DNA of 64,000 nt from Fonticella tunisiensis (GTDB lineage Bacteria > Bacillota > Clostridia > Clostridiales > Caloramatoraceae): the NCBI RefSeq assembly GCF_004364155.1, contig NZ_SOAZ01000012.1:1-64000 (forward strand), in the 5' to 3' direction. The translations under genes and the position numbers were made by a program. Shown here piece after piece: positions 685-64,000 of this stretch. How positions within the stretch are numbered: the stretch's first letter is position 1; every line of letters begins with the position of its first letter. A model generated the notes under the pieces. That model was not told the DNA's origin. It did no database searches and was given only the letters and a program-made list of their open reading frames with translations.

Positions 685-1560
685 TTATTGTAACTCTTTA
701 CGTTTTTTATCATTAATAATTCTATGATACTCCTTTGATATTTTATAATTTGTGTTCAAAATACTATACAACATAGCTATTGGAATAATTAACACATAAA
801 AATTAGTAAAGTGAGTTTTATGGTAAACAAATCCTTGAAAGAAAAATAAAAAGGAGATTCCTGTTAATATTAGTATTGTTTCTAAAATTGTTAACTTTAA
901 ATATATGTTTTTCTTGTAATATAATTTATTCTTATAATCGTTTATTAAAATAAGACCAAAAATAATCGGAATTGAAAAAAGTATTATACTATTCCTATTA
1001 TCACTTTGTTTCAATATAGGCGGAATAATTATATACAAAATAATTATTAAAATAAACACTATAGATGCCAAAATTGAACACTTTATAATATTTTCTATAT
1101 GAGATTCATTAGACCTTTGTCCTATGATAACTCTAGAACCATATTTTATTCCATCTCTAATTGAAATTTTAGGATTTTCATCTTTATCAGCATTGAATGA
1201 TGAATATCTTTTGCAGTAAAGTGTCATAAAAAAAGTTAAAAGTCCCAAAGTCAACTGACTAATAAAAACATAAATGAAAATTGTAGATTTGATATTTAAA
1301 GTCGATAAATACCATCCTGCAATCAATGTTAACAAACTTATAATAACACTTGAGACAAAAACCCCCTTCACAAATCTTGATTTAAAGTCTGTTGTTCTAA
1401 TAATCTTGCTACACAAAAGTAACAAAATAGAATAAGTAAAATAATGGGACAAGCTCCATAGATCAATTATTCTTCCAAAATATGAAGATAACATACCAAA
1501 AATCAAACTATTTACATTTAATATCAATAAAGTAGCTATATACAAATTCCATTTTTTCAT
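685..1560 (-). CDS. polytopic membrane protein, candidate immunity/partner of GG-peptide A
   Basis: I do not recognise the family. The roughly 291-residue product is very hydrophobic, with about eight membrane segments and a Lys/Arg/Glu-rich C-terminus, and no signal peptide beyond the first segment. The ATG at 1560 is chosen because GGAGATTGATT sits just upstream; an ATT/ATG two codons earlier has no better site. It directly follows the double-glycine peptide gene at 1670-2089 in the same orientation, as the last gene of the cluster. By analogy with class II bacteriocin loci, where an immunity membrane protein follows the structural gene, it is inferred to protect the producer. It shares no obvious sequence with the other membrane partner at 2302-2910, consistent with peptide-specific roles. 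Nothing visible supports an enzymatic function. Confidence 0.6.
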   Translation of the reverse strand: MKKWNLYIATLLILNVNSLIFGMLSSYFGRIIDLWSLSHYFTYSILLLLCSKIIRTTDFKSRFVKGVFVSSVIISLLTLIAGWYLSTLNIKSTIFIYVFISQLTLGLLTFFMTLYCKRYSSFNADKDENPKISIRDGIKYGSRVIIGQRSNESHIENIIKCSILASIVFILIIILYIIIPPILKQSDNRNSIILFSIPIIFGLILINDYKNKLYYKKNIYLKLTILETILILTGISFLFFFQGFVYHKTHFTNFYVLIIPIAMLYSILNTNYKISKEYHRIINDKKRKELQ

Positions 1561-1669
1561 AATCAATCTCCTATGTTTAATTGTTATAACCGCAATGACT
1601 TCTTATCAATAATTCAAGACAGTCATTGCAGTTATAGTTAATTTCTACGCAATGTTGATTAGTAAAATA

Positions 1670-2089
1670 CTATTTTACAGAAGAATCTATTCCGTATGGT
1701 ATTCCCCACCTTGAATACTTTATTCCAATCTCAAGACCTTTACCTTGAATTAAGGCATCTGCAATATCATAACCTAATCCACTAATAGCAGCCAAACCTA
1801 TAATACCTAACACCCAACCTACTGGTCCTGAAAACGCTCCTAACCTAGCACTTATAGCTGCCCATCCTGCAGCTATTATACGATATACTTTCCATGTTCC
1901 TAATGCAACGAGTGTTGCCCCAACCGGATTGATTCCTGCCGCTAAAAATGTCCCTTTACAAAAACCCCAAAGAGTAGCATGTGAAATATAAACTCCCCCA
2001 TCTACATACTCCATTTCATCTCTGTCAATATCCACGAAGCTGCTTGGCAATTGCAATTCGTACTTTCTTTGCAATGCAAATGCACCCAT
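1670..2089 (-). CDS. double-glycine-leader bacteriocin-like peptide A (139 aa)
   Basis: The N-terminus is a textbook C39-processed leader: LQLPSSF at residues 12-18, EM at 25-26 and a Gly-Gly pair at 31-32, so cleavage after residue 32 would free a mature peptide of about 107 residues. The mature part starts VYISHATLW, is rich in Gly, Ala and Ile, and has hydrophobic stretches likely to insert in membranes; it contains one Cys. That is large for a class II bacteriocin (usually 30-60 residues). The leader is nearly identical to that of the peptide at 2907-3329 while the mature parts differ completely. The ATG has a good site (AAAGGAG). The upstream DNA is part of a 1240-bp-spaced duplication. 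Function as an antimicrobial or signalling peptide is inferred from the leader and neighbours only. Confidence 0.7.
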   Translation of the reverse strand: MGAFALQRKYELQLPSSFVDIDRDEMEYVDGGVYISHATLWGFCKGTFLAAGINPVGATLVALGTWKVYRIIAAGWAAISARLGAFSGPVGWVLGIIGLAAISGLGYDIADALIQGKGLEIGIKYSRWGIPYGIDSSVK

Positions 2090-2268
2090 GTTTAAATACT
2101 CCTTTCATTTAAATTATATATTATTAAAGGCATCTGCAGCTGCCTTTAATAACCAATTAATTAAATTTTATCCCTATTTGTTCCATGAAGTATTTCATAT
2201 AAGTTATTTTCTCGTACTTCACTCTTGTTTCAGTAACCATCCCTAGAGTAAGGTTTACTCTTTTGCCT
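2011..2268 (-). repeat. leader/adaptor-end duplication, copy A
   Basis: This segment matches 3251-3508 at a constant offset of 1240 bp with only a few differences. It carries, in minus-strand order, the last ~37 codons of the HlyD-type adaptor, the intergenic spacer with ribosome binding site, and the leader coding region of the GG-peptide. Similarity ends in the leader just before the Gly-Gly pair on one side and about 15 bp of deletion into the adaptor on the other. Confidence 0.85.
2157..2268 (-). pseudogene. 3'-end remnant of the HlyD adaptor gene
   Basis: On the minus strand this reads VNLTLGMVTETRVKYEKI and onward to a stop, identical to the end of the complete adaptor at 3397-4509 apart from the last residue (Asn for Asp). 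It has no start and no upstream adaptor sequence, so it is a by-product of the duplication that created the second leader. Confidence 0.8.
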
Positions 2269-2301
2269 TTTTATATGTTTTCTTTGATAACCATACAAAC
2301 A

Positions 2302-2910
2302 CTATAGGTTATTAATATTGTCTTTATTAACAATATTATATATCCACTTACCTAATAGCAAATATATGGTTATAACAAACATTAAATATATTATTCTTAA
2401 GAATAATATATTTTTTAAAAAGATAGCACGATACAGAACAAAAAAGGTAAATGTGGACAAAATAATCAATGGTAATGCTGTGAATATGAACCATTTTATT
2501 TTATATCCTTTTTTTGCTTCATAACAATTCTGCAAAACTTCACAATTACAATTTAATAGTTCAAATGGTTTATCTGCTTTAAATTTATTAACTTTTATAT
2601 TGATATTCTCAGCACTTTTTGTTTTAAATGATAGAATAGCATTATACGGTTTACCAAACATTTGATTATCACTTGTACCTGAAAGAAGCACTACAAACCA
2701 ATAAAATATCATTAAAAATATTCCTTTCTTATCTTCAAAAAGAAAATTTACAAATTTTATCGTTATAGTTTTCTCAAGATTATCTTCTAATTCTACAAAT
2801 ATACAATCTTTCTTATAATTGAGGGGTAATTCTTTACCGTTACAAGTAATAAGGCATTTATAATTATCCTTATAATATTTATTTTCAATCGATAATATCA
2901 TATTAATCAC
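2302..2910 (-). CDS. membrane protein, candidate immunity/partner of GG-peptide B
   Basis: I do not recognise this roughly 200-residue protein. It has a polar N-terminal part (about residues 1-65), one hydrophobic segment near 65-80, a second polar part, and two strong membrane segments near 140-190. The start is a GTG overlapping the stop of the preceding GG-peptide gene by four bases (an ATG lies three codons on), with no strong ribosome binding site, so translation is probably coupled. That coupling to the 140-aa GG-peptide argues for a dedicated partner, most simply an immunity protein. The composition is more AT-rich than the chromosomal genes further right. The alternative is an accessory protein for peptide maturation. 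Confidence 0.6.
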   Translation of the reverse strand: MINMILSIENKYYKDNYKCLITCNGKELPLNYKKDCIFVELEDNLEKTITIKFVNFLFEDKKGIFLMIFYWFVVLLSGTSDNQMFGKPYNAILSFKTKSAENINIKVNKFKADKPFELLNCNCEVLQNCYEAKKGYKIKWFIFTALPLIILSTFTFFVLYRAIFLKNILFLRIIYLMFVITIYLLLGKWIYNIVNKDNINNL

Positions 2911-3329
2911 AATACAATATTATTATTCACGGCTCCATCTGAAAAATAGTCAGCTGCAAATGCAACTATTCCACCTATGGATGTAAAACTACCGAGATTT
3001 GGGATTAAAAGATTTAGTAAAGAACTCCCCGTTATATTGAACAAAGCACTTCCGGCCGCTCCAACTGCCTTTGTGACAGCCCAGCCAATTATTCCACTTA
3101 ATTTACCAGCATATCTTTTTAATAATGAGATTGCAGCAGTTCTTCCCAAGTACTTTAGAGGTGCCATCGCCCATCCTAGTGGTGTAGCCAGTAATAATGC
3201 GTCTACTGGAATACTTACATACCATCTTGGAAACCCTCCCTCAATATATTCCATTTCATCTCTGTCAATATCCACGAAGCTGCTTGGCAATTGCAATTCG
3301 TACTTTCTTTGCAATGCAAATGCACCCAT
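2907..3329 (-). CDS. double-glycine-leader bacteriocin-like peptide B (140 aa)
   Basis: The first 28 residues are identical to those of peptide A, followed by IEGG at 29-32, so processing after Gly32 would leave a mature peptide of about 108 residues beginning FPRWYVS. The mature part is hydrophobic and Gly/Ala/Leu-rich with several Lys/Arg, without Cys, and ends in a short polar tail. The ATG is preceded by AAAGGAG. The gene lies between the adaptor gene (3397-4509) and a coupled membrane-protein gene. Known class II precursors use the same leader logic, with a C39 peptidase removing the leader during export. The length is unusual for that class. The mature sequence does not match any bacteriocin I know. 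Confidence 0.7.
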   Translation of the reverse strand: MGAFALQRKYELQLPSSFVDIDRDEMEYIEGGFPRWYVSIPVDALLLATPLGWAMAPLKYLGRTAAISLLKRYAGKLSGIIGWAVTKAVGAAGSALFNITGSSLLNLLIPNLGSFTSIGGIVAFAADYFSDGAVNNNIVL

Positions 3330-3508
3330 GTTTAAATACTCCTTTCATTTAAATTATATATTATTAAAGGCATCTGCAGCTACCTTTAATAACCAATTAA
3401 TCAAATTTTATCCCTATTTGTTCCATGAAGTATTTCATATAAGTTATTTTCTCGTACTTTACTCTTGTTTCAGTAACCATTCCTAGAGTAAGGTTTACCC
3501 TTTCACCT
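3251..3508 (-). repeat. leader/adaptor-end duplication, copy B
   Basis: Partner of 2011-2268 (offset 1240 bp). Here the adaptor part is still joined to an intact adaptor gene, so this is the likely parental copy. Confidence 0.85.
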
Positions 3509-4509
3509 TTTTTATCCGTAAGATATGTTTTCTCAGGTTTTACCTTTACCTTAAAATAAACATTCCCTTTTTCATTATCTATCGTGGCGTCTTCATCTAT
3601 GGATATAACCCTTCCCTTTAAAGTTCCATATTCGGCTTGGTTTAAGCCGCCTACTGCAAGGGATACTTCATCCCCCACATGTATTCTAGGTCTATCGCTG
3701 CTTGGTATAAGAGTTTCTACTATTATATCACCATCATTACTTGATATGGTGCCTATTAAACTTCCTCCTTGAAGTACTACGCCTTTTTTAAGAGATATAT
3801 TTAAGTGAACCTTTCCATTACTGGGAGCATAAAGCTTGTACTCTTCAGTTGATTGAGAAATAGATGCCTTTTGTATCTCCAGCTTACTTCTTTCCATTTC
3901 TAGCTGCTTTCTCTCATTAGTAAAGGATAGGATTATATCATAATATAACTGATCTTTTTTTATTTTTACCTGCTCCTTATTCTGTTTTATTTGTTCCTCC
4001 GTATAATTCTGTTTTTTAAGTGCTTCTTCATCTATGTTATACTCTTTTAGCTTTATATAGCTATTTACAAGTTTGTTGTAAAATTCTGCTTCATCTGCGT
4101 TTTTCTTATTAAAAGTATTTGTTCCTTTGGCTGCATCATTTTCTGCTCTCTTTAAAAGTTCAATTCTTTTATTCAAAACCTCAATCTGTCCCTCTATCTG
4201 TTGAAGCTGATATTTAGGCTCCGGAGAGTTAAACACTATGAGTAAATCCCCCTCTTTTACCTCTTTTCCTTCTTCAACATAAACCTCCTTAATTTCTCCT
4301 GATACCTTTGCCATTATGTTGCTCTTTTTTTCAGTGGTTATAATTCCTTGTCCTTTAACTACAAAGGTTTTAACAGATTTTGTACTCCACACAAGAAAAG
4401 CAATAACCAGTGCTAGAACAACTAAAATTATATACATCAAAAACCTTGGAGGATTTTTATCATAAAGAAGTCTACTATCCGTTATTTCATTTAAACTATA
4501 TACCTTCAA
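3397..4509 (-). CDS. HlyD-family secretion adaptor (membrane fusion protein)
   Basis: This 370-residue protein has a short cytoplasmic N-terminus, one membrane helix at about residues 24-44, then a biotinyl-lipoyl-like half (VSGEIKEVYVEEGKEVKEGD), a long Lys/Glu-rich coiled coil at about 90-215, the returning lipoyl half and a beta-barrel domain. That is the layout of the accessory proteins that work with C39-type ABC exporters in Gram-positive bacteriocin loci. The TTG at 4509 is chosen because AGGAGG lies nine bases upstream; the gene overlaps the end of the 165-aa gene by 14 bases. The gene appears intact although its exporter partner is broken. Its last 37 codons are duplicated at 2157-2268. 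Confidence 0.85.
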   Translation of the reverse strand: MKVYSLNEITDSRLLYDKNPPRFLMYIILVVLALVIAFLVWSTKSVKTFVVKGQGIITTEKKSNIMAKVSGEIKEVYVEEGKEVKEGDLLIVFNSPEPKYQLQQIEGQIEVLNKRIELLKRAENDAAKGTNTFNKKNADEAEFYNKLVNSYIKLKEYNIDEEALKKQNYTEEQIKQNKEQVKIKKDQLYYDIILSFTNERKQLEMERSKLEIQKASISQSTEEYKLYAPSNGKVHLNISLKKGVVLQGGSLIGTISSNDGDIIVETLIPSSDRPRIHVGDEVSLAVGGLNQAEYGTLKGRVISIDEDATIDNEKGNVYFKVKVKPEKTYLTDKKGERVNLTLGMVTETRVKYEKITYMKYFMEQIGIKFD

Positions 4510-4993
4510 GTGCTAAGTCCTCCTTTTGTACTTCCATAAATACATCCGCAACTATTTTATTTCCATTTTTATCAACAAATACAGTATAGCTATCACCTTT
4601 AAGCTTTATATCATTCTCAAAGGCGTGAAGCTGAAGCTTAGAATAAGCAAATTGAAGATTTTCTTCCTTTTCTGAAAATCTGGCAAATAGACAATTTGGA
4701 ACTCTTAACAGACTTTTAAACTCATAAGGCTCTTCAATATTATGTATAGGATTTTTAAGCTGTACCATTAGTTTCAAAATAATCTTAACTTGTCCACTTT
4801 CATCTGCCGATGCTGCTGAATAGTTTATCATAGGCCCAACTATGGAATTTCCCTTAGATTTTATATAGCTTTCCATCATATAAGCTATCTTATTTATATC
4901 CATAAACTCATTTTCTCTTACCTCTCTAATAAGTACATTGTTTAATTTTAGTGTCTTATTCTCCCTTAAAATTATCTTTTCACCTGTACTCAT
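4496..4993 (-). CDS. unrecognised 165-aa cytoplasmic protein of the peptide-export cluster
   Basis: No signal peptide or membrane segment is visible. The pattern of short beta-like segments, with LNNVLIREVRENE near the start and GNSIVGPMINYSAAS near residues 48-62, loosely recalls GyrI-like/DUF5085-type small-molecule-binding folds, but I cannot assign a family with confidence. The start codon lies inside the end of the exporter gene (14-bp overlap) and the stop overlaps the adaptor start, so it is translated as part of the export operon. A chaperone or regulatory role for the peptides is possible but unsupported beyond position. Confidence 0.55.
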   Translation of the reverse strand: MSTGEKIILRENKTLKLNNVLIREVRENEFMDINKIAYMMESYIKSKGNSIVGPMINYSAASADESGQVKIILKLMVQLKNPIHNIEEPYEFKSLLRVPNCLFARFSEKEENLQFAYSKLQLHAFENDIKLKGDSYTVFVDKNGNKIVADVFMEVQKEDLALEGI

Positions 4994-5509
4994 ATATATC
5001 GTTATCCCCCTCTTCTCCTGTTATACCTTCGTTATTTGCATATGCAATTTCTTCTTTTGCCTTATCTATTGAGGAATCTAACTCTCCAACCTGACTTATG
5101 TAAAGTTTATTGTAATAACCCTTTTTCTTTAAAAGTGTTTCATGATCTCCAACCTCAACTACTCTTCCCTTATCCATAACATATATAATGTCACAATTTC
5201 TAATAGTGGATAATCTATGGGCTATTATAAGCATGGTTAGATTCTTTCCCTTAACAAACAGGGTATCGTAAATCTTCGCCTCACTTATAAAGTCAAGGTT
5301 GCTTGTGGCTTCATCAAGAATTAAAAACTTGGATTTCTTAATTAAAGCCCTTGCAAGAGCAAGCCTTTGTCTCTCTCCTCCTGATAACCCTCCGCCAGCT
5401 TCATCCAGGAAGGTATCATACTTTGCTGGAAGTTTTTCTATAAAAGAGTTACAACCAGCAGCTTCACAGGCATCTTTTATTTCTTGATAGCTTGCACTAC
5501 CTTTATTAA
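4980..5509 (-). pseudogene. bacteriocin ABC exporter, 3' fragment (ATPase C-terminal half)
   Basis: Read on the minus strand from about 5509, the frame starts NKGSASYQEIKDACEAAGC and contains the signature LSGGERQRLALARAL, Walker B with FLILDEATSNLD and the H-loop IIAHRLSTIRNCD, ending in an acidic tail. No Walker A or Q-loop is present upstream. It is out of frame with the 5' part at 5477-6355, so only an internal ATG (5234) could start a very short product. Compared with a normal ~720-residue C39 exporter, roughly 300 residues are missing between the two parts. Confidence 0.8.
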
Positions 5510-6355
5510 CGACAGTGATATGGATGTAAGAACATTCTTAATAGTAAAGGCGTCACTAAACCTCGTTAATATATCCCCTACTTTCCTGGTTGTAAAAAAC
5601 TGCATGGGTAACTTATAGACATGCTTAAAGTAGCCTAAAAGTAGTGGAATATCTATTTTTTGAGATAGGTATAGAAGCATGTGCTGCCTTATGGATGATA
5701 GAATAATTTGTGTGACTCCTAAAACTAAAAATCCTATTACAAATATTTTAAGTTGATTTTTTAATCCATAGGGAAGTATCTCATCCATGAGTATTTTGTT
5801 AAAGAAGGATGAAGCTATGCCTAAAACTGTAAGTATTACTGAGGCTATAATGCTATAAATAAACAATGCCCTTTGAGGTAAAAGTAAACTTATAAATTTA
5901 GACAGCATACTGCCGCTTTTATTTTTTCCTGAAGAAAACTCATTGTTAGGAACCATTAGAAGAAAAATGCCATCAAAATTCTTAAAGAATTCATCTATCT
6001 CCTTCTTTTCTACTCCCTTTGCAGGATCTAAAATTATAACCTTGTCCTTTTTAACCCTATGTATAACTACAAAGTGGCTAAGGCCTTCATCCGTTATAAC
6101 ATGGGCAATTGCAGGTAAAGTGTATTTGCTCATAAAGCCCTGCTTGTCCACTCTAATAGCTCTTGTATCAAACCCCAGTCTTTTTGCACCATCCTCCAGT
6201 CCCTTTAAGGTTGTTCCCTTAATATCTGTTCCCAATATGTCTCGTAATTTTGTTATAGTAATTTCTTTTTTATAATACATACAGACTGTTGCAAGACATG
6301 CTGCCGCACAATCAGTCATGTCATGCTGTTTTACTAAATATTTTTTGTAGCTCAC
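5477..6355 (-). pseudogene. bacteriocin ABC exporter, 5' fragment (C39 peptidase plus partial membrane domain)
   Basis: The 292-residue frame begins with a GTG preceded by AAAGGGAG. Residues 1-135 form a C39 peptidase with the conserved Gln and Cys in VKQHDMTDCAAAC, the His in LSHFVVIH and Asp in ILDPAKG, so the leader-cutting site looks intact. From about 155 it runs into the ABC membrane domain (two or three helices and the FTTRKVGDILTRFSD coupling segment), then stops at 5477 just past a junction where the reading frame jumps to the ATPase end. The rest of the membrane domain and Walker A are absent. It is the first gene of the peptide-export operon. Either the exporter is dead, or the truncated peptidase works with a transporter encoded elsewhere; an assembly collapse is the third possibility. 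Confidence 0.8.
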
Positions 6356-9852: not shown

Positions 9853-10050
9853 CCAAATGAGATAGCACAACTCAATAAACCGGGACGTTTATTGAGACAG
9901 TCCTACAGCTCTTAACTGTAGGCCCAGCAAGTAATACTGAGGATATTACAAGCTTCGGCGATATTTCCTTCTCCCCAGGCTCATTGCTCCCTCACGCTCC
10001 ACCAGGGACTGTTAAATACCGCGCCTCTACCTCACTTGTAAAAGTGAGGT
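9853..10050 (-). ncRNA. lysine riboswitch (L box)
   Basis: On the minus strand the conserved L-box pieces occur in order: GAGGTAGAGGCGCG, ttaACAGTC, GGGGAGAAGGAAATATCGCC, GAAGCTT, TGCTGGGCC, GGACTGTCTC and a loop hairpin over AATAAACG/CGGTTTATT. Helix P1 joins GTGAGGTAG with CTATCTCAT. Its 3' strand can alternatively pair with 9760-9771, which would break the terminator at 9725-9760. High lysine is therefore expected to shut off the ABC operon. Confidence 0.9.
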
Positions 10051-48232: not shown

Positions 48233-48617
48233 ACTAAAATTTATCATAATAAATGTAATTTATAGAAACTTAGTGAATAATTGATAAATGCTATCATTCT
48301 AAAGATAATTATAATTGATAACTTTAATCAATACAAGCATTTTTGTGAAAAAATTATTTATGTCTAAAACACTGCCCCGTCCTAAAGGAGTGCAAGTCTT
48401 TTATACAGTTTTTAATGTATGTTGCTTATTCTATATAAAAATTTTTTGTAAGTGCAACTGATTCTTCTTTAATAATTTTGTTCCAATCGTTCCGAACTAT
48501 GTTAAACCTCTGTCAAAGCATAGAGCATAAGGAAATTCTTTTGATGGGCATTTATTAGATGTTTATTCAAAATCTATCTATTATTAAAATAATATTGTAT
48601 AATAATGTTATAATAAA

Positions 48618-48672
48618 TAAAGAGGTGATGGAGTTCACCTTTAATTGCCATTGTGCTGATGGCTCCTGCTTT
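48618..48672 (+). ncRNA. fluoride riboswitch (crcB motif)
   Basis: The signature pieces are in order: GAGGTGATGGAGTTCACCT (stem with GATGG and GTTC), TTAATTGCC and GCTGATGGCTCCTGC. The 3' part overlaps the following terminator, so fluoride binding can release transcription. It stands 50 bp before the fluoride-channel gene. Confidence 0.88.
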
Positions 48673-48695
48673 ATATCATAAAGTAGGAGTTTTAT
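48663..48695 (+). terminator. riboswitch-controlled terminator
   Basis: CTCCTGCTTTAT pairs with ATAAAGTAGGAG and is followed by TTTTATTTT. The 5' arm is shared with the fluoride aptamer. Confidence 0.8.
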
Positions 48696-53371: not shown

Positions 53372-53488
53372 GCATGTGAATTCTCTCTCATCTGTCAGCA
53401 TATGCTGCTGGAATTAGCACCTTGCAATAGATTGCTGGTTGCCGGGCTTCATCGGGCCAGTCCCTCCGCCTCTCTTGATAAGAGTTCC
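53372..53488 (-). ncRNA. SAM-I riboswitch (S box)
   Basis: The minus strand carries the S-box core in order: CTTATCAAGAGAGGCGGAGG, GACTGGCCCGATGAAGCCCG, GCAACC, AAGGTGCTAATTCCAGCAG and ACAGATGAGAG, whose end closes helix P1. SAM binding is expected to favour the terminator and switch metQ off. Confidence 0.93.
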
Positions 53489-54441: not shown

Positions 54442-54522
54442 CCAATTTTCCCTTTAATTAATAACTTGATTTTAATTTAAGTTATGTTAAAATTTAACTA
54501 AAAGAATGAATTGAATAAATTA

Positions 54523-54622
54523 CCGGCACTAGGGGAGCTGGAATTGGCCAGCTGAGATAAGGATTCCGGAAAAACCTTGACCCTTGTACCTGATCTGGAT
54601 AATGCCAGCGTAGGGAAGTGCT
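54523..54622 (+). ncRNA. TPP riboswitch (THI box)
   Basis: The core motifs are present: GCACTAGGGGAG, GCTGAGATAAGGA, GACCCTTGTACCTGATCTGG, ATAATGCCAGCGTAGGGAAG. The AGATAAGGA segment is complementary to TCCTTATCT (54662-54670) inside the terminator's 5' half and loop, giving an alternative pairing that would open transcription without TPP. Confidence 0.93.
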
Positions 54623-54653
54623 ATTTATATGCATTTTAATTTGTATATTTAAT

Positions 54654-58875: not shown

Positions 58876-61800
58876 TTATTCAGCCTTTCTTTTACGAACT
58901 ACCATAAATACCCCTGCACCTAAAGCAAGAATGCCCAGTGTTATAAGAAGGTTTCTATCAACGGGTGACCCTGTCTTGGGAATAACCTTTGAACCATCTG
59001 AACTTATTGGTGTATCTATTCCGCCAGAATTTCCTGGTTGCTCTATATTCCCTGGTGTAGTTGTTTCATTAGCTTTTACAACGATTTTACATTCTGCACT
59101 ATAGCTTCCGTCCTCAGTGGTTACAGTTATTGTTGCCTTTCCTTCCTTTAATGCCGTTACCTTTCCATTGTTATCTACCCTGGCCACAGCTTCGTTGTCA
59201 GACTTCCAGCTAACATTCTTGTTTGTTGCATTATCAGGAGTTATTGATGCCTTAAGGTTTAATGTATCTCCAACCTTAAGCTCGGCATTCGTTTTATCAA
59301 GGCTTATTCCTGTTACTAACACAGCTGAATTTACCAGAACAATCTCTGAAGTGTTTCTAACCCTTATTCTGTGCCCCTCCGGATCCTCTGATGCAAGACC
59401 AACTGCACTTACAACATCACCCACCTTAATTCTTCTATCCCATTTACCGAGCATGTCAGGATTGTCTGTATCATCTCCAATATATCCATTTACATATATT
59501 CTTGCTTCTCCACTGCCATCATCAAGGAATAGTGAGTTCTCTGTCATTTTTGTTACCTTACCTTCAACCTTAACAAGCCATCCTTCATTTTCCTCAAGCA
59601 TACTCTCGTAGGTTTTCATTACCCTTGGTTCAACAAGCTCTATGTTGCTGCCCAATATTTCAATGTCATAGTTTTCATTTGAAAGCTGAAGCTCAGCATC
59701 CCCATCATACTGGTCAACCTTTCCTATTACCCTAACCTTTGAACCAAGCGGAAGGGACTTGTTTGAAACACCAAACACTGTAATTCCACCAGTTTCGTCC
59801 TGAACATAGAATACGTCAAAGAAGGCTGTATTTTTAACTGCTGCCTTTGAAGCTGCCGTGACTCTTCCTTCAACCATGAACTTCTTTCCAAGGTTATCTA
59901 AAATTCCATCCCTGTCTTTATCTTCCCTAACCTGTGCGATAGTTGAAAGCTTAGGCCTTGTCATCCAGCCAAGTATGTTTTGTGTTATCTGCCTGTTTGC
60001 ATATTCGTTATCTCCTGTAGTTTCAAAGTCTGAGAAGAAGGTTGTTCCTGCAACTATTAGCTTACCTCCTCCAGGAAGAACTTCTGCTGCAAGGGAGTAA
60101 ACGTTACCCTTCTCAACCGGAGCTGCATCATTTTGAAGGTCGGAATCTAATGTTTCTGTTGTTTCGTGGCCCTTTATAAGCCAATCAACAGCCGAATCAC
60201 TTCCACCATCTTTAAGTATCACAGAGCATCCGCTGTATGCACTGTAGGTAAGCCCCTCTGGAATGTTGTTCGTGAGTCCATATTTTGTTGATACATAATC
60301 ATCAAAATATAGTCTATATTCCTGTCCCCCATTTGAAGTTTTATCTATGACCTCATCATCGTTAAACCTCAGGTTAGAGCCTATAGCTTCAAGAATTCTG
60401 TTGCCCTGATTTGAGTTCTCATAGGCTTTTTCGGTTACACCTTTATCATTGTAATCTGCCCTTGATGTTATGATAAGTGAACCGCCATTAGTCACGAAGT
60501 TCTTTATTACATCTATCTCTGCATCTGTAAAGTTTGACCTAAAGAGATTATATCTTGAATCATCCTTACTTTGAGGGTCTGTTATTATAAGAATCCTTGC
60601 ATCCCGCAAATCCTCTTGTGTTAAGGCGTCCTTATTCTCATAAAACAGGAACTTTCTATCTGAAAGTATTCCCTTAAGGGCAGTTATTTTGTTTGAATAG
60701 TCTCCGCTAACATACTGATTATAGTGTCCCGCATCTACTACAACCTTTACTATGTCATCCTTATTGGCAACCTCAACCTTTGTACTTGCTGTAAATGCTC
60801 TGTCCTCTCCATTTATGTTAAGGGTCGTGGCTGCATATATGATGTAGCTGCCTGCCTTATCAGGCGTCCAGTTAATTAATGTGTCGGCTGTTCCTCTAAT
60901 TGGTATTTCTGAAATTGTTTTTTCCTCTATTTTGTTTTCTGGTTTTATTTCGTTTACGAAGAATTCAACCTTTACATCCTTTAGGGCCTCATCGCCATTA
61001 TTAAAAAGTGTTGCCTTTAAATCCACCGGGTTATTGGTAATATAGATATTTTGGGAAGCCTCAACCTTTGATATTCCTGCTGATATATTGGCCCCTGTCC
61101 AAACCGGTGCTGTAACTGCAATATCTTTATCTTCCTGATCAACTCTTACATAATAGTATGAGTATTGTGGACTTAAGGTTAAACTCCAATCCGCAGTATT
61201 TGAATCAAAATTCTTAGATGCCGCAACAACTCCACCGTTGGTTATTATTGAAACCTTGCCTATTTTATCGGATATATCAGGGTCCTGAATACTTATATTT
61301 ATATCAAGGGATGATGGATTTGAAAGGAAGGAGCCCATCACCTTGTCATTAGCCTTAAACATTATCCTGAGGTTCTCATCTTCAGTTGCGTATACCCTCA
61401 TCTTTCTTAATGCATCATATACGTACTCCCTTGAAAGTGCCGGTGCTAAAACCACTGTCCTTGCAGTATTTGCAGTTACCCAATTGGCCTTATGGTTGTC
61501 CTGGTTATTTGTTGGAGCCACGTGCCACCCCTTATCAAGTGCCCTGGTATAATATTCATAGCTTGGAAAGTATCCTGAGCCCCTAACCGGACCCTCACCG
61601 TTTCCCACTTCTATAAGATTTACTACACTGTCAACCTGAGGGTCATAATATCCAAAGTCGCCAAAGTCCCCGAATGTGGTTCCCGGATGGTTGAACTGGG
61701 ATATGGACATAGGATATTTCTTTATTTCATTGTAGTACATTGGAAGGTCAACCGATTTACCATCTATCTTGCTGTTTCTTGAAAGAAATCCTGGAGTATT

Positions 61801-64000
61801 AAAGGTATTTATGTGTCCCCAACCTCCTGTGCTTCCGCTCCAGGTCATTTCAAATCCTGCAATGGCTGCAAACTTACCATCTTCATTGTACTTATCTGCA
61901 ATTTCATGGAGTTTCTTCCACTCGTTGCTTGCAGAACCATCGGCAAGGGTTGCACTTGTATCATTGTCAAGGGAATTTGAGTGGTCAGTTACTGCGAAGA
62001 AATCGGCCTTTGCAGTATTTTTCGCCCAGTCATAGGCCTCCTCAGGGGTTCCCTGTCCATCAGAGTAGTTTGTATGGCTGTGGAGCTGTCCAAAGTATAT
62101 GTTATACTCTTCCTTACCAACATAAAAGTTCCATTCCATTATGCCGGTGTTTGGAACAGGTGCCTTGTCCCTTAATTCAAGCTTAACATAGTGGATCCCC
62201 TTTGAAAGGTCCTGCTCCGGTGTGTAGGATATTCCATCCTCTGTAATAACTGCCTTATCTGTAACATCGGTATTATCCAGGTACAACCTTGCTGAGCCTG
62301 TATCAATTCCAGACCCTGTATCTTTGTATTTAGCGCTTATAACAGGCCTTAAATTTTCCCCTGTAAATTCACCACTTCCGGGTGTCATATCAGAGATTTC
62401 AGGGCCTAAAAGGTCTGAATCGGTAATATTTACTTTATATGGAGAGTTTTTATCCTCCGGGGATGTTACTGTATTTGTTCCGTCTGTAGCTTCAATATAA
62501 TATTCAAGCCCTGTAGTGCTTAGATCCTCCCTTGGAATCGATGCTGAATAGTTGCCATTTAAAAGTTCCATTTCCATAGACTTATAGGTTGTTTGTCCAA
62601 TTGCTCTGTAGTAAAGCTTAACTGCCGCAACCCTTTTATTGTCCGTAACCTTTGCGGTTATATCAAGGTTTGCAGATGTACTCCCTTCAGTAACGGGATC
62701 GTGTGTTATAGCAGGAGGTGTTGTATCCTCTCCTACTGTTCCACCCTCAAAGCCGTCCATAGTATGTATACCCAGGTCATCAAAATAATTTATATTCTTA
62801 ATATCCCACTCCTTTGACGGATCGAAGGCATCGCTTGAATTGCTATCACCTTTTGTAACCGTGCTTTTTCTAATGAGTGTATGGTCGACTGTTGCACCGC
62901 TTCCCCATGATGTACCGGGGTCAAAACCTACCTGGCCGAAGGAATCTATAACTACTCCATCGTGCTCAAGGGTTAAGGCATCATCACCATTAAAGTTTGC
63001 AACTCCTGAGATTATATCGGCTCTACTCTTTATTGCATCAGCTGCACTGCTGTTTGCAATTACATATACATCCCCATTTGCCAATGTTCCTGCGAGATTT
63101 AAAGTATTGCCTGGTGTTGTAGAACCATTTGAGTAAAGCTTTAGAGTATACTTTGACAGATCTACATCTTTACCGGTTCCATTGAATATCTCAATTGCCT
63201 TGTTGTTGCTGCTACCCTCAATGTACTCCGATATGAAAAGGTCGTCAGCAAACACACCCTGATGTAGAACAATGTCTGAGGTATTTCTAACCCTTAGCTG
63301 ATAATCCTTATATTGCGAAACTATTGCCGTTACATCTACCTTGTCCCCTTCCTTAATATCCATTAAAGAAGGTATTTTATAGATATTAATCGTTCCAGTG
63401 TCATCGGTAAGGGTCGTATTTCCTGTTGTGTTTATAGCCCCAAGGATTGCTCCCTTAATCTTTACGAGCTGGCCTTCATAGGCTTCCCCTATTTGGCTTA
63501 TTTTTACAACCTTTGGCTGTGGGAGTGCATTATTGCTGCTTTCAGCAGTAACGTCTGAATTTGACGCAGGCTTTATTTCAAGCAGACCATTGTATATTGC
63601 AAGGGGACCCTTTACAACTATCTGGTCTCCAACCTTTAAATCAAGCCCATATTTATACACATTAATTCCTGCAGCATCGTCCTGTATATAGTAGTTGCTC
63701 CCATCTACCCAGGTTACTATTCCTCTGACCGCTACAATTGTGTTCTCAGGCTTCTGCCTGGCTTCAGCTATAGAAAGAATACTTGCCGGCTTAACTGTAA
63801 CTTCACAGGTATCCCTATATCCTCCATCCTCTGTTATTGCAGCAATTATGGCCTTTCCTTCCTTTATGCCCTTAACTACTCCGCCATTTACCTGTGCAAC
63901 GGTTTCATCGCTCGATGACCAGATTATATTTTTGTTTGTTGCATCCTGAGGCTGAACCCATGCTTCAAGGGTTATTGCGTTTCCAACCTCAACCTCTGCA
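58876..64000 (-). CDS. giant sortase-anchored surface protein with PHP-type phosphoesterase domain (5' end outside window)
   Basis: The minus-strand frame is open to the right edge, so about 1,700 C-terminal residues are seen. In order: a BIG2 Ig-like domain (about 64000-63790), two OB-fold modules (63780-63250), a lamin-tail-like domain (FISEYIEGSSNNKAIEIFNG, 63250-62850), Ig-like segments, a CehA-type PHP domain (FGQLHSHTNYSDG, FFAVTDHSNSLD, SQFNHPGTTFGD, TNNQDNHKA; 62100-61390), a CARDB-like domain, a DUF4350-like region (VVVDAGHYNQYVSGD), two more OB modules (59890-59330), a second BIG2 (59330-59070) and a sorting signal VIPKTGSPVDR plus helix plus RKRKAE. The metal-binding His/Asp residues of the PHP part look intact, so a wall-bound nuclease or phosphoesterase is likely. 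IPKTG departs from LPXTG at the first residue. Confidence 0.85.
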   Translation of the reverse strand, partial: AEVEVGNAITLEAWVQPQDATNKNIIWSSSDETVAQVNGGVVKGIKEGKAIIAAITEDGGYRDTCEVTVKPASILSIAEARQKPENTIVAVRGIVTWVDGSNYYIQDDAAGINVYKYGLDLKVGDQIVVKGPLAIYNGLLEIKPASNSDVTAESSNNALPQPKVVKISQIGEAYEGQLVKIKGAILGAINTTGNTTLTDDTGTINIYKIPSLMDIKEGDKVDVTAIVSQYKDYQLRVRNTSDIVLHQGVFADDLFISEYIEGSSNNKAIEIFNGTGKDVDLSKYTLKLYSNGSTTPGNTLNLAGTLANGDVYVIANSSAADAIKSRADIISGVANFNGDDALTLEHDGVVIDSFGQVGFDPGTSWGSGATVDHTLIRKSTVTKGDSNSSDAFDPSKEWDIKNINYFDDLGIHTMDGFEGGTVGEDTTPPAITHDPVTEGSTSANLDITAKVTDNKRVAAVKLYYRAIGQTTYKSMEMELLNGNYSASIPREDLSTTGLEYYIEATDGTNTVTSPEDKNSPYKVNITDSDLLGPEISDMTPGSGEFTGENLRPVISAKYKDTGSGIDTGSARLYLDNTDVTDKAVITEDGISYTPEQDLSKGIHYVKLELRDKAPVPNTGIMEWNFYVGKEEYNIYFGQLHSHTNYSDGQGTPEEAYDWAKNTAKADFFAVTDHSNSLDNDTSATLADGSASNEWKKLHEIADKYNEDGKFAAIAGFEMTWSGSTGGWGHINTFNTPGFLSRNSKIDGKSVDLPMYYNEIKKYPMSISQFNHPGTTFGDFGDFGYYDPQVDSVVNLIEVGNGEGPVRGSGYFPSYEYYTRALDKGWHVAPTNNQDNHKANWVTANTARTVVLAPALSREYVYDALRKMRVYATEDENLRIMFKANDKVMGSFLSNPSSLDINISIQDPDISDKIGKVSIITNGGVVAASKNFDSNTADWSLTLSPQYSYYYVRVDQEDKDIAVTAPVWTGANISAGISKVEASQNIYITNNPVDLKATLFNNGDEALKDVKVEFFVNEIKPENKIEEKTISEIPIRGTADTLINWTPDKAGSYIIYAATTLNINGEDRAFTASTKVEVANKDDIVKVVVDAGHYNQYVSGDYSNKITALKGILSDRKFLFYENKDALTQEDLRDARILIITDPQSKDDSRYNLFRSNFTDAEIDVIKNFVTNGGSLIITSRADYNDKGVTEKAYENSNQGNRILEAIGSNLRFNDDEVIDKTSNGGQEYRLYFDDYVSTKYGLTNNIPEGLTYSAYSGCSVILKDGGSDSAVDWLIKGHETTETLDSDLQNDAAPVEKGNVYSLAAEVLPGGGKLIVAGTTFFSDFETTGDNEYANRQITQNILGWMTRPKLSTIAQVREDKDRDGILDNLGKKFMVEGRVTAASKAAVKNTAFFDVFYVQDETGGITVFGVSNKSLPLGSKVRVIGKVDQYDGDAELQLSNENYDIEILGSNIELVEPRVMKTYESMLEENEGWLVKVEGKVTKMTENSLFLDDGSGEARIYVNGYIGDDTDNPDMLGKWDRRIKVGDVVSAVGLASEDPEGHRIRVRNTSEIVLVNSAVLVTGISLDKTNAELKVGDTLNLKASITPDNATNKNVSWKSDNEAVARVDNNGKVTALKEGKATITVTTEDGSYSAECKIVVKANETTTPGNIEQPGNSGGIDTPISSDGSKVIPKTGSPVDRNLLITLGILALGAGVFMVVRKRKAE

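Follow-up and report, generated by a model that had tools for sequence, protein, structure and literature searches.

A putative two-cassette bacteriocin-immunity array behind a C39-ABC, DUF5085-like and HlyD export operon in Fonticella tunisiensis

At the start of a contig of Fonticella tunisiensis, two large precursors with double-glycine (GG) leaders are each followed by a membrane protein of their own, and we read the locus as a two-cassette bacteriocin-immunity array lying behind a dedicated C39-ABC/DUF5085-like/HlyD export operon, with cassettes exchanged through a 5' arm; we put the probability of this reading at about two in three. The stretch of DNA that was analyzed, referred to here as the window, is 64,000 nucleotides long and begins at contig base 1. 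The features of the locus are as follows, in gene order.

6355-4980, minus strand: C39-ABC exporter, both remnants, first in gene order
5477..6355, minus strand: N-terminal part of the exporter, with the C39 peptidase and the start of the membrane domain (Peptidase_C39, E 2e-38), residues 1-284, then a frameshift
4980..5512, minus strand: C-terminal ATPase part of the exporter, corresponding to residues 575 to the end of relatives, in another frame (tblastn against intact exporters)
4496..4993, minus strand: DUF5085-like protein, 165 aa, between exporter and hlyD
3397..4509, minus strand: HlyD-type accessory protein, 370 aa (HlyD_3, E 3.8e-15)
3360..3393, minus strand: hairpin before cassette A, loop GCTGCAGA with a palindromic hexamer (fold z -2.95)
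2907..3329, minus strand: precursor A, 140 aa; leader 3234-3329 (32 codons), mature part 2910-3233 (108 aa)
2302..2910, minus strand: membrane protein A, 202 aa, GTG start at 2910; putative immunity protein for A
2157..2272, minus strand: truncated copy of the hlyD 3' end located 5' of cassette B; it comprises the stop and the 37-38 codons before it and has 95% identity to HlyD residues 334-370
2120..2153, minus strand: hairpin before cassette B, same loop (fold z -3.24)
1670..2089, minus strand: precursor B, 139 aa; leader 1994-2089, mature part 1673-1993 (107 aa)
685..1566, minus strand: membrane protein B, 293 aa, ~7 TM segments; putative immunity protein for B

The two leaders are identical at 30 of 32 residues and share the form MGAFALQRKYELQLPSSFVDIDRDEMEY(IE/VD)GG, and the mature parts, beginning FPRWYV in A and VYISHA in B, show no convincing similarity to each other. 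The frame of membrane protein A begins inside that of precursor A, with an overlap of 4 nt; membrane protein B lies 103 nt 3' of precursor B if the TTG at 1566 is used, and an ATG is present at 1560. An earlier sequence-only reading had proposed twin GG-leader precursors with unrelated mature parts and a separate membrane partner for each, all of which stands. It had also singled out the length of the mature parts, which is indeed unusual for class II bacteriocins generally but normal here, most intact relatives having mature parts of ~75-120 aa. Its expectation that the leaders are cut by a C39 exporter agrees with the presence of a C39 exporter locus, but the exporter is disrupted in the assembly. 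The combination that characterizes class II GG-leader bacteriocins, a double-glycine leader and a C39 exporter, is found at this locus, the exporter being interrupted here and intact in relatives. Formal membership in Bacteriocin_IIc (Pfam PF10439) fails at the curated cut-off of 27.1 bits, precursor B scoring 20.9 and precursor A 11.8; 5 of 29 relatives match the family at E <= 0.01, and Pfam and NCBIfam searches with the precursors returned no family above cut-off. A plasmid origin was rejected, since neither precursor A nor the DUF5085-like protein had a match among 72,556 plasmids. Elsewhere in the window, four riboswitches exceed their Rfam gathering scores (lysine, 9855-10037; fluoride, 48615-48675; SAM, 53385-53484; TPP, 54521-54633), and positions 58876-63660 encode a 1594-aa protein with matches to DUF5689, Lamin Tail Domain, OB-fold, DUF3604 and Big_2, which probably is a large, extracellular protein of the nuclease or phosphoesterase type.

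The leader lies inside a direct repeat of 278 nt (1995-2272 and 3235-3512) whose copies are 96% identical, and for that reason the sequence match between the leaders is far beyond chance. The resemblance of the leaders had been noticed before and is real, but the shared block also spans the 5' UTR and the end of hlyD, which had been missed. Each copy contains the leader, the 5' hairpin and the last ~38 HlyD codons, and is bordered by the Gly-Gly codons at one end and by a point inside hlyD at the other; a search of the genome found no copies besides these two. The hlyD tail ends 70 nt before precursor B, the same spacing as that of the full hlyD before cassette A, and its presence marks cassette B as a separate cassette.

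In several genera, C-terminal fragments of HlyD likewise precede additional or stand-alone cassettes (L039, L041, L043, L049, L057, three in L071, L083 and the window), terminating at most one residue from the HlyD terminus and 61-135 nt 5' of the precursor. The matches are strong in the window, L041, L043_3064, L057, L071_9300 and L083, and weak when taken alone in L043_1291 and L049 (both E 2e-3) and in two L071 cases (E ~1e-2). Such tails stand before about a third of the extra cassettes only and are thus common, not universal; several contigs of one MAG start inside HlyD tails, as expected of repeats. Given that several other genera have HlyD tails in front of extra cassettes, cassettes have probably been added or swapped by recombination through the end of hlyD, the UTR and the leader. 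These segments would together constitute a 5' homology arm through which homologous recombination could bring in new cassettes, leaving truncated hlyD tails behind and exchanging the mature part at the Gly-Gly border. If this is true, the hlyD tail records past swaps in the sequence and lets them be traced across genomes.

Within the order, a profile of both precursors matches 20 of 227 genomes. A scan limited to named genomes found relatives in Clostridium prolinivorans, C. intestinale, C. sartagoforme, C. gasigenes, C. paridis, C. frigoris, C. cibarium and C. simiarum, and further ones in Proteiniclasticum ruminis, Erysipelothrix, Streptococcus mitis, Helcococcus, Neobacillus, Eubacterium and others. 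The usual order in these relatives is exporter, DUF5085-like gene and HlyD, followed by one to several cassettes of a precursor and a membrane protein; in some genera, a cassette is placed between the exporter and the DUF5085-like gene. Their leaders are conserved, with P15, E25, Y28, G31 and G32 invariant, and their mature parts are diverse, so that the search of related genomes suggested by the sequence-only reading recovered the same leader with many unrelated mature parts. One mature type carries an HA..YY ... NPI.I.DG motif (L042:6931-7317, L047:7977-8396 and L056:8598-8954); its L056 member is clearly less hydrophobic than the other cargo and may act differently. A group II intron RNA (Rfam RF02001, 131 bits) lies within the cassette array of L039 (L039:8667-8838).

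The membrane partners follow the mature parts. Among 42 pairs of similar mature parts from different loci, 7 have recognizably similar downstream TM proteins; label permutation gave a mean of 0.73 and reached 7 in 1 of 5000 permutations, a figure that is indicative since the pairs are not independent. Window peptide B matches the L038 peptide at 2e-25 and their membrane partners match at 9e-8, and a relative of membrane protein B follows a B-family peptide in both L038 and L039; membrane protein A has no detectable relative. Because the TM partners co-vary with the mature parts, these comparisons support cognate toxin-immunity pairing, and membrane proteins A and B are our proposed immunity proteins. 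The earlier suggestion of a toxin/immunity diversification cassette swapped behind one leader is thus borne out, both by the one leader with its many mature parts and by this co-variation.

The cargo is shared with other carriers. Mature family A (alignments A4 and A6) also forms the C-terminal tip of WapA/YD-repeat proteins, in L114 (1868 aa) and L126 and, in partial or shorter form, in L124 and L125.

L114:6868-12474 (likewise L124, L125 and L126): WapA/YD-repeat protein whose C-terminal ~99 residues are the family A domain, with a small two-TM ORF on its 3' side

One Rhs tip and one GG cargo of the family are 43% identical over 99 residues. Family A also makes up the C-terminal domain of proteins of ~190-235 residues whose N-termini resemble signal peptides (L115, L127, L129, L130 and L133). 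Most of the carriers outside the GG loci have a TM protein of 56-66 residues directly downstream; the exceptions are L115, which is followed by a 134-residue TM protein, and L126, after which the TM ORF begins ~140 nt downstream. The homology to the Rhs/WapA tips is firm for the core C39 cargo of family A, and window peptide A is only a marginal member of that family, scoring 16.3 bits against the family built without it (shuffles at most 7.0). Window peptide B is a firm member of family B (58.4 bits leave-one-out), which has one carrier outside the GG loci, a Sec-type protein in L121 that scores 27.1 bits against the family without the window sequence (shuffles at most 10.9). An AlphaFold2 model of mature A was poor and of low confidence, with no PDB match. 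The sequence-only reading had named a match of the mature parts to non-exported proteins as evidence against it; instead, every non-GG relative with a complete N-terminus has either a signal-peptide-like N-terminus or an Rhs/WapA shell. In sequence, then, the cargo look like polymorphic membrane-toxin domains, and the ~100-residue domain probably acts on membranes.

A DUF5085-like protein is encoded in 20 of the 21 distinct loci that hold exporter and HlyD, loci that were picked by precursor and not by this gene; the exception is L083, whose contig begins at hlyD. In the reverse direction, the gene occurs in 3 of 260 sampled genomes, twice in such loci and once alone. This solitary gene (L137:7879-8406) has no match to a C39 exporter, HlyD or precursor in the 16-kb stretch examined. 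At 22.3 bits, below the cut-off of 30, the window protein fails formal membership in Pfam DUF5085; at E <= 0.01, 4 of the 21 orthologues match DUF5085 and 1 matches GyrI-like, and a PDB sequence search with the profile gave no match. An AlphaFold2 model of the protein (pLDDT 89, pTM 0.82) has a predicted GyrI-like (duplicated SHS2) fold, for which Foldseek returned the GyrI-like structures CtR107, CtaZ, BmrR and SbmC.

The literature that names DUF5085, to judge from the parts available, concerns mostly type VII secretion, together with a Staphylococcus secretome study. The DUF5085 proteins TipE and ExiAB neutralize the type VII membrane toxins TelE and EsxX inside the producer; the hydrophobic groove of ExiB holds the glycine-zipper helix of EsxX, and the polytopic ExiCD protect from outside (PMC10434224, PMC12744356). 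Because of this neutralizing activity within the producer, we consider the DUF5085-like protein, by analogy, to be probably a shared cytoplasmic cargo chaperone or a pre-export neutralizer. No LXG protein with a family A or B domain was seen in the genome samples, so the link to TelE and EsxX runs through the DUF5085 partner only. DUF5085-like proteins 41% and 34% identical are also present in MT839012.1 and MT835749.1, unannotated fecal 'Bacteriophage sp.' contigs of a phage collection that are possibly mislabeled bacterial DNA.

The exporter itself is interrupted. Its two remnants are 76-92% identical to the ~755-residue C39-ABC exporter of relatives, residues 1-284 reaching 91-92% against intact ones; residues 285-574 (~290 codons), a segment that takes in the greater part of the membrane domain and, judging by its position, the beginning of the ATPase, are absent, and the frame is shifted. 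A split or transposed exporter was rejected because the missing part was found nowhere else in the genome at high identity, the best match being 33% identical and thus no close copy, and the genome has no C39 domain other than that of this exporter. As judged from the assembled sequence, the exporter is either recently inactivated or misassembled. It is doubtful that misassembly accounts for the gap and that the organism has a fully active system. The remnants carry no further lesions, the C-terminal part being an open frame, the remaining genes are intact and the assembly consists of 64 contigs, all of which would suit such an error, but the missing part is on no contig at high identity, and disrupted exporters are common in the comparable blp and rtg loci: blpAB is intact in 23.5% of pneumococcal genomes (PMC4860687) and rtgA is disrupted in 59.1% (PMC7018657). 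With the exporter interrupted as assembled, the locus most likely no longer exports in this genome; it may be retained for immunity or be left over as a remnant.

Many cassettes are preceded by a hairpin. In the window, both copies lie between the hlyD stop and the RBS and have 13 bp with the loop G-CUGCAG-A. A strict scan found the element before 10 of 71 precursors, compared with 1.2% of random 300-nt stretches. Outside the window, hairpins of this kind lie upstream of precursors in L038, L039, L040, L041, L044, L045, L049, L055, L056 and L057. Among 12 hairpins, two looser cases having been added and the set chosen partly for stem pairing, changes on both sides occur at 7 of the 10 stem pairs. 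The inner hexamer of the 8-nt loop is palindromic in all but one (CTGCAG, CTCGAG and CTTAAG), with compensated changes; because the bases of these loop pairs lie too near each other to pair inside a single hairpin, the pattern suggests loop-loop contact between hairpin copies. The flanking loop G and A keep one strand orientation, which favors a hairpin acting as RNA rather than as a DNA operator. Comparison with the caiA RNA (Rfam RF02934) gave 27.9 and 25.5 bits, under the gathering cut-off of 55.5. Control of precursor expression is the obvious guess for its role.

Three further explanations start from the pairing of the precursors or from their leaders. The sequence-only reading had entertained a two-component bacteriocin, that is, a class IIb pair in which A and B act jointly on one target, and two precursors with one leader in one operon would fit it. 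Nevertheless, each precursor has its own membrane protein, against the class IIb criterion of a single immunity gene, the families occur singly elsewhere (L038 has a B-family peptide and a B-type partner alone, and many loci have one cassette), and the duplicated hlyD tail sets B apart; the existence of relatives with a single cassette led us to reject this candidate, which we regard as very unlikely. Pheromones, too, use GG leaders and C39 exporters, and the peptides could in principle have a signaling or other non-toxic role of this kind. Their ~100-residue length, their very high diversity, their co-varying membrane partners and the fact that family A sits where Rhs/WapA proteins carry their toxin make this highly improbable. 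Finally, the 96% identity and adjacency of the two arms would be expected if the second leader block were a plain tandem duplication followed by divergence and not an acquired cassette, but the similarity ends sharply at the GG codons, the mature parts fall into different families that occur apart from each other in other genomes, and membrane proteins A and B are not related, so we give this origin little credence.

In the exchangeable toxin-immunity array that we favor, each cassette would consist of a hairpin, an RBS, a 32-codon leader, a toxin domain of ~100 residues and a membrane immunity protein. In relatives with an intact locus, the hydrophobic precursor would be held in the cytosol by the GyrI-like protein and would lose its leader to the C39 domain, and the ABC exporter and HlyD would export the toxin, which would then perturb the membrane of sensitive neighbors while the cognate membrane protein protects the producer. 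The gene order, the repeat, the hlyD tails, the exporter gap, the co-occurrence, the co-variation and the sharing of domains can be read from the sequences themselves; the toxicity, the membrane target, the roles as chaperone and immunity protein and the mechanism of recombination are deduced from them. We tentatively go further and propose that the locus represents a bacteriocin export system not described before, served by a GyrI-like (DUF5085-type) chaperone of its own and carrying a shared repertoire of polymorphic membrane-toxin domains, which move among GG/C39, Sec and Rhs/WapA carriers and are exchanged through an arm reaching into hlyD, with a hairpin whose palindromic loop possibly kisses before many cassettes. 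The literature searched, a scope outside which most subscription journals fell, yielded no description of the C39/DUF5085-like/HlyD combination or of a domain common to GG peptides and Rhs proteins. If this proposal is true, the large GG-leader peptides of Bacillota are polymorphic membrane-toxin domains on a further delivery route and not odd class II bacteriocins, and a joint search of C39 loci, Sec precursors and Rhs/WapA proteins can uncover their repertoire of toxins and immunity proteins. The proposal would also hint at how cells hold hydrophobic pore-formers before export, with one GyrI-like chaperone for many cargo, and at how arrays gain new cassettes.

Several known systems share parts of this arrangement. 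In the Rhs/WapA polymorphic toxins, family A forms the C-terminal tip, in most cases with a small membrane protein encoded after it, and the displaced-cassette logic is similar (PMC3482391); in contrast, the window domain is a stand-alone exported peptide, and the available parts of that account do not name GG/C39 export among the delivery routes of polymorphic toxins. Perfrin of Clostridium perfringens is a bacteriocin of ~106 aa that makes up the C-terminal fragment of a longer precursor that is secreted, comparable to the Sec-type relatives, but has no reported GG leader (PMC3992141). Caulobacter Cdz (CdzC/CdzD/CdzI) combines a type I exporter, small bacteriocin-like proteins and a small membrane immunity protein; CdzC and CdzD are paired, contact-acting glycine-zipper proteins of 84-86 aa (PMC5380434), whereas the window peptides, with five GxxxG motifs in B and one in A, show no tandem GxxxGxxxG zipper, and, unlike Cdz, the window locus has a DUF5085-like protein.

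The type VII LXG toxin loci of TelE/TipE and EsxX/ExiABCD likewise place a DUF5085 protein beside a membrane-depolarizing toxin with polytopic membrane immunity (PMC10434224, PMC12744356), but the likeness is drawn via the DUF5085 partner only, delivery in our locus being by C39-ABC/HlyD with a GG leader and no LXG domain. The pneumococcal blp and rtg GG-peptide loci also have a C39 exporter with an accessory protein and several GG peptides with membrane partners, as well as modular variation and often disrupted exporters (PMC4860687, PMC7018657). Unlike these loci, for which the available parts of the accounts mention no DUF5085-like gene, the window has one, and its mature parts of ~100 aa and a shared block that reaches into hlyD set it further apart. 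By analogy, then, the system would work like the blp and rtg arrays, with a handling of membrane toxins that resembles that of type VII loci.
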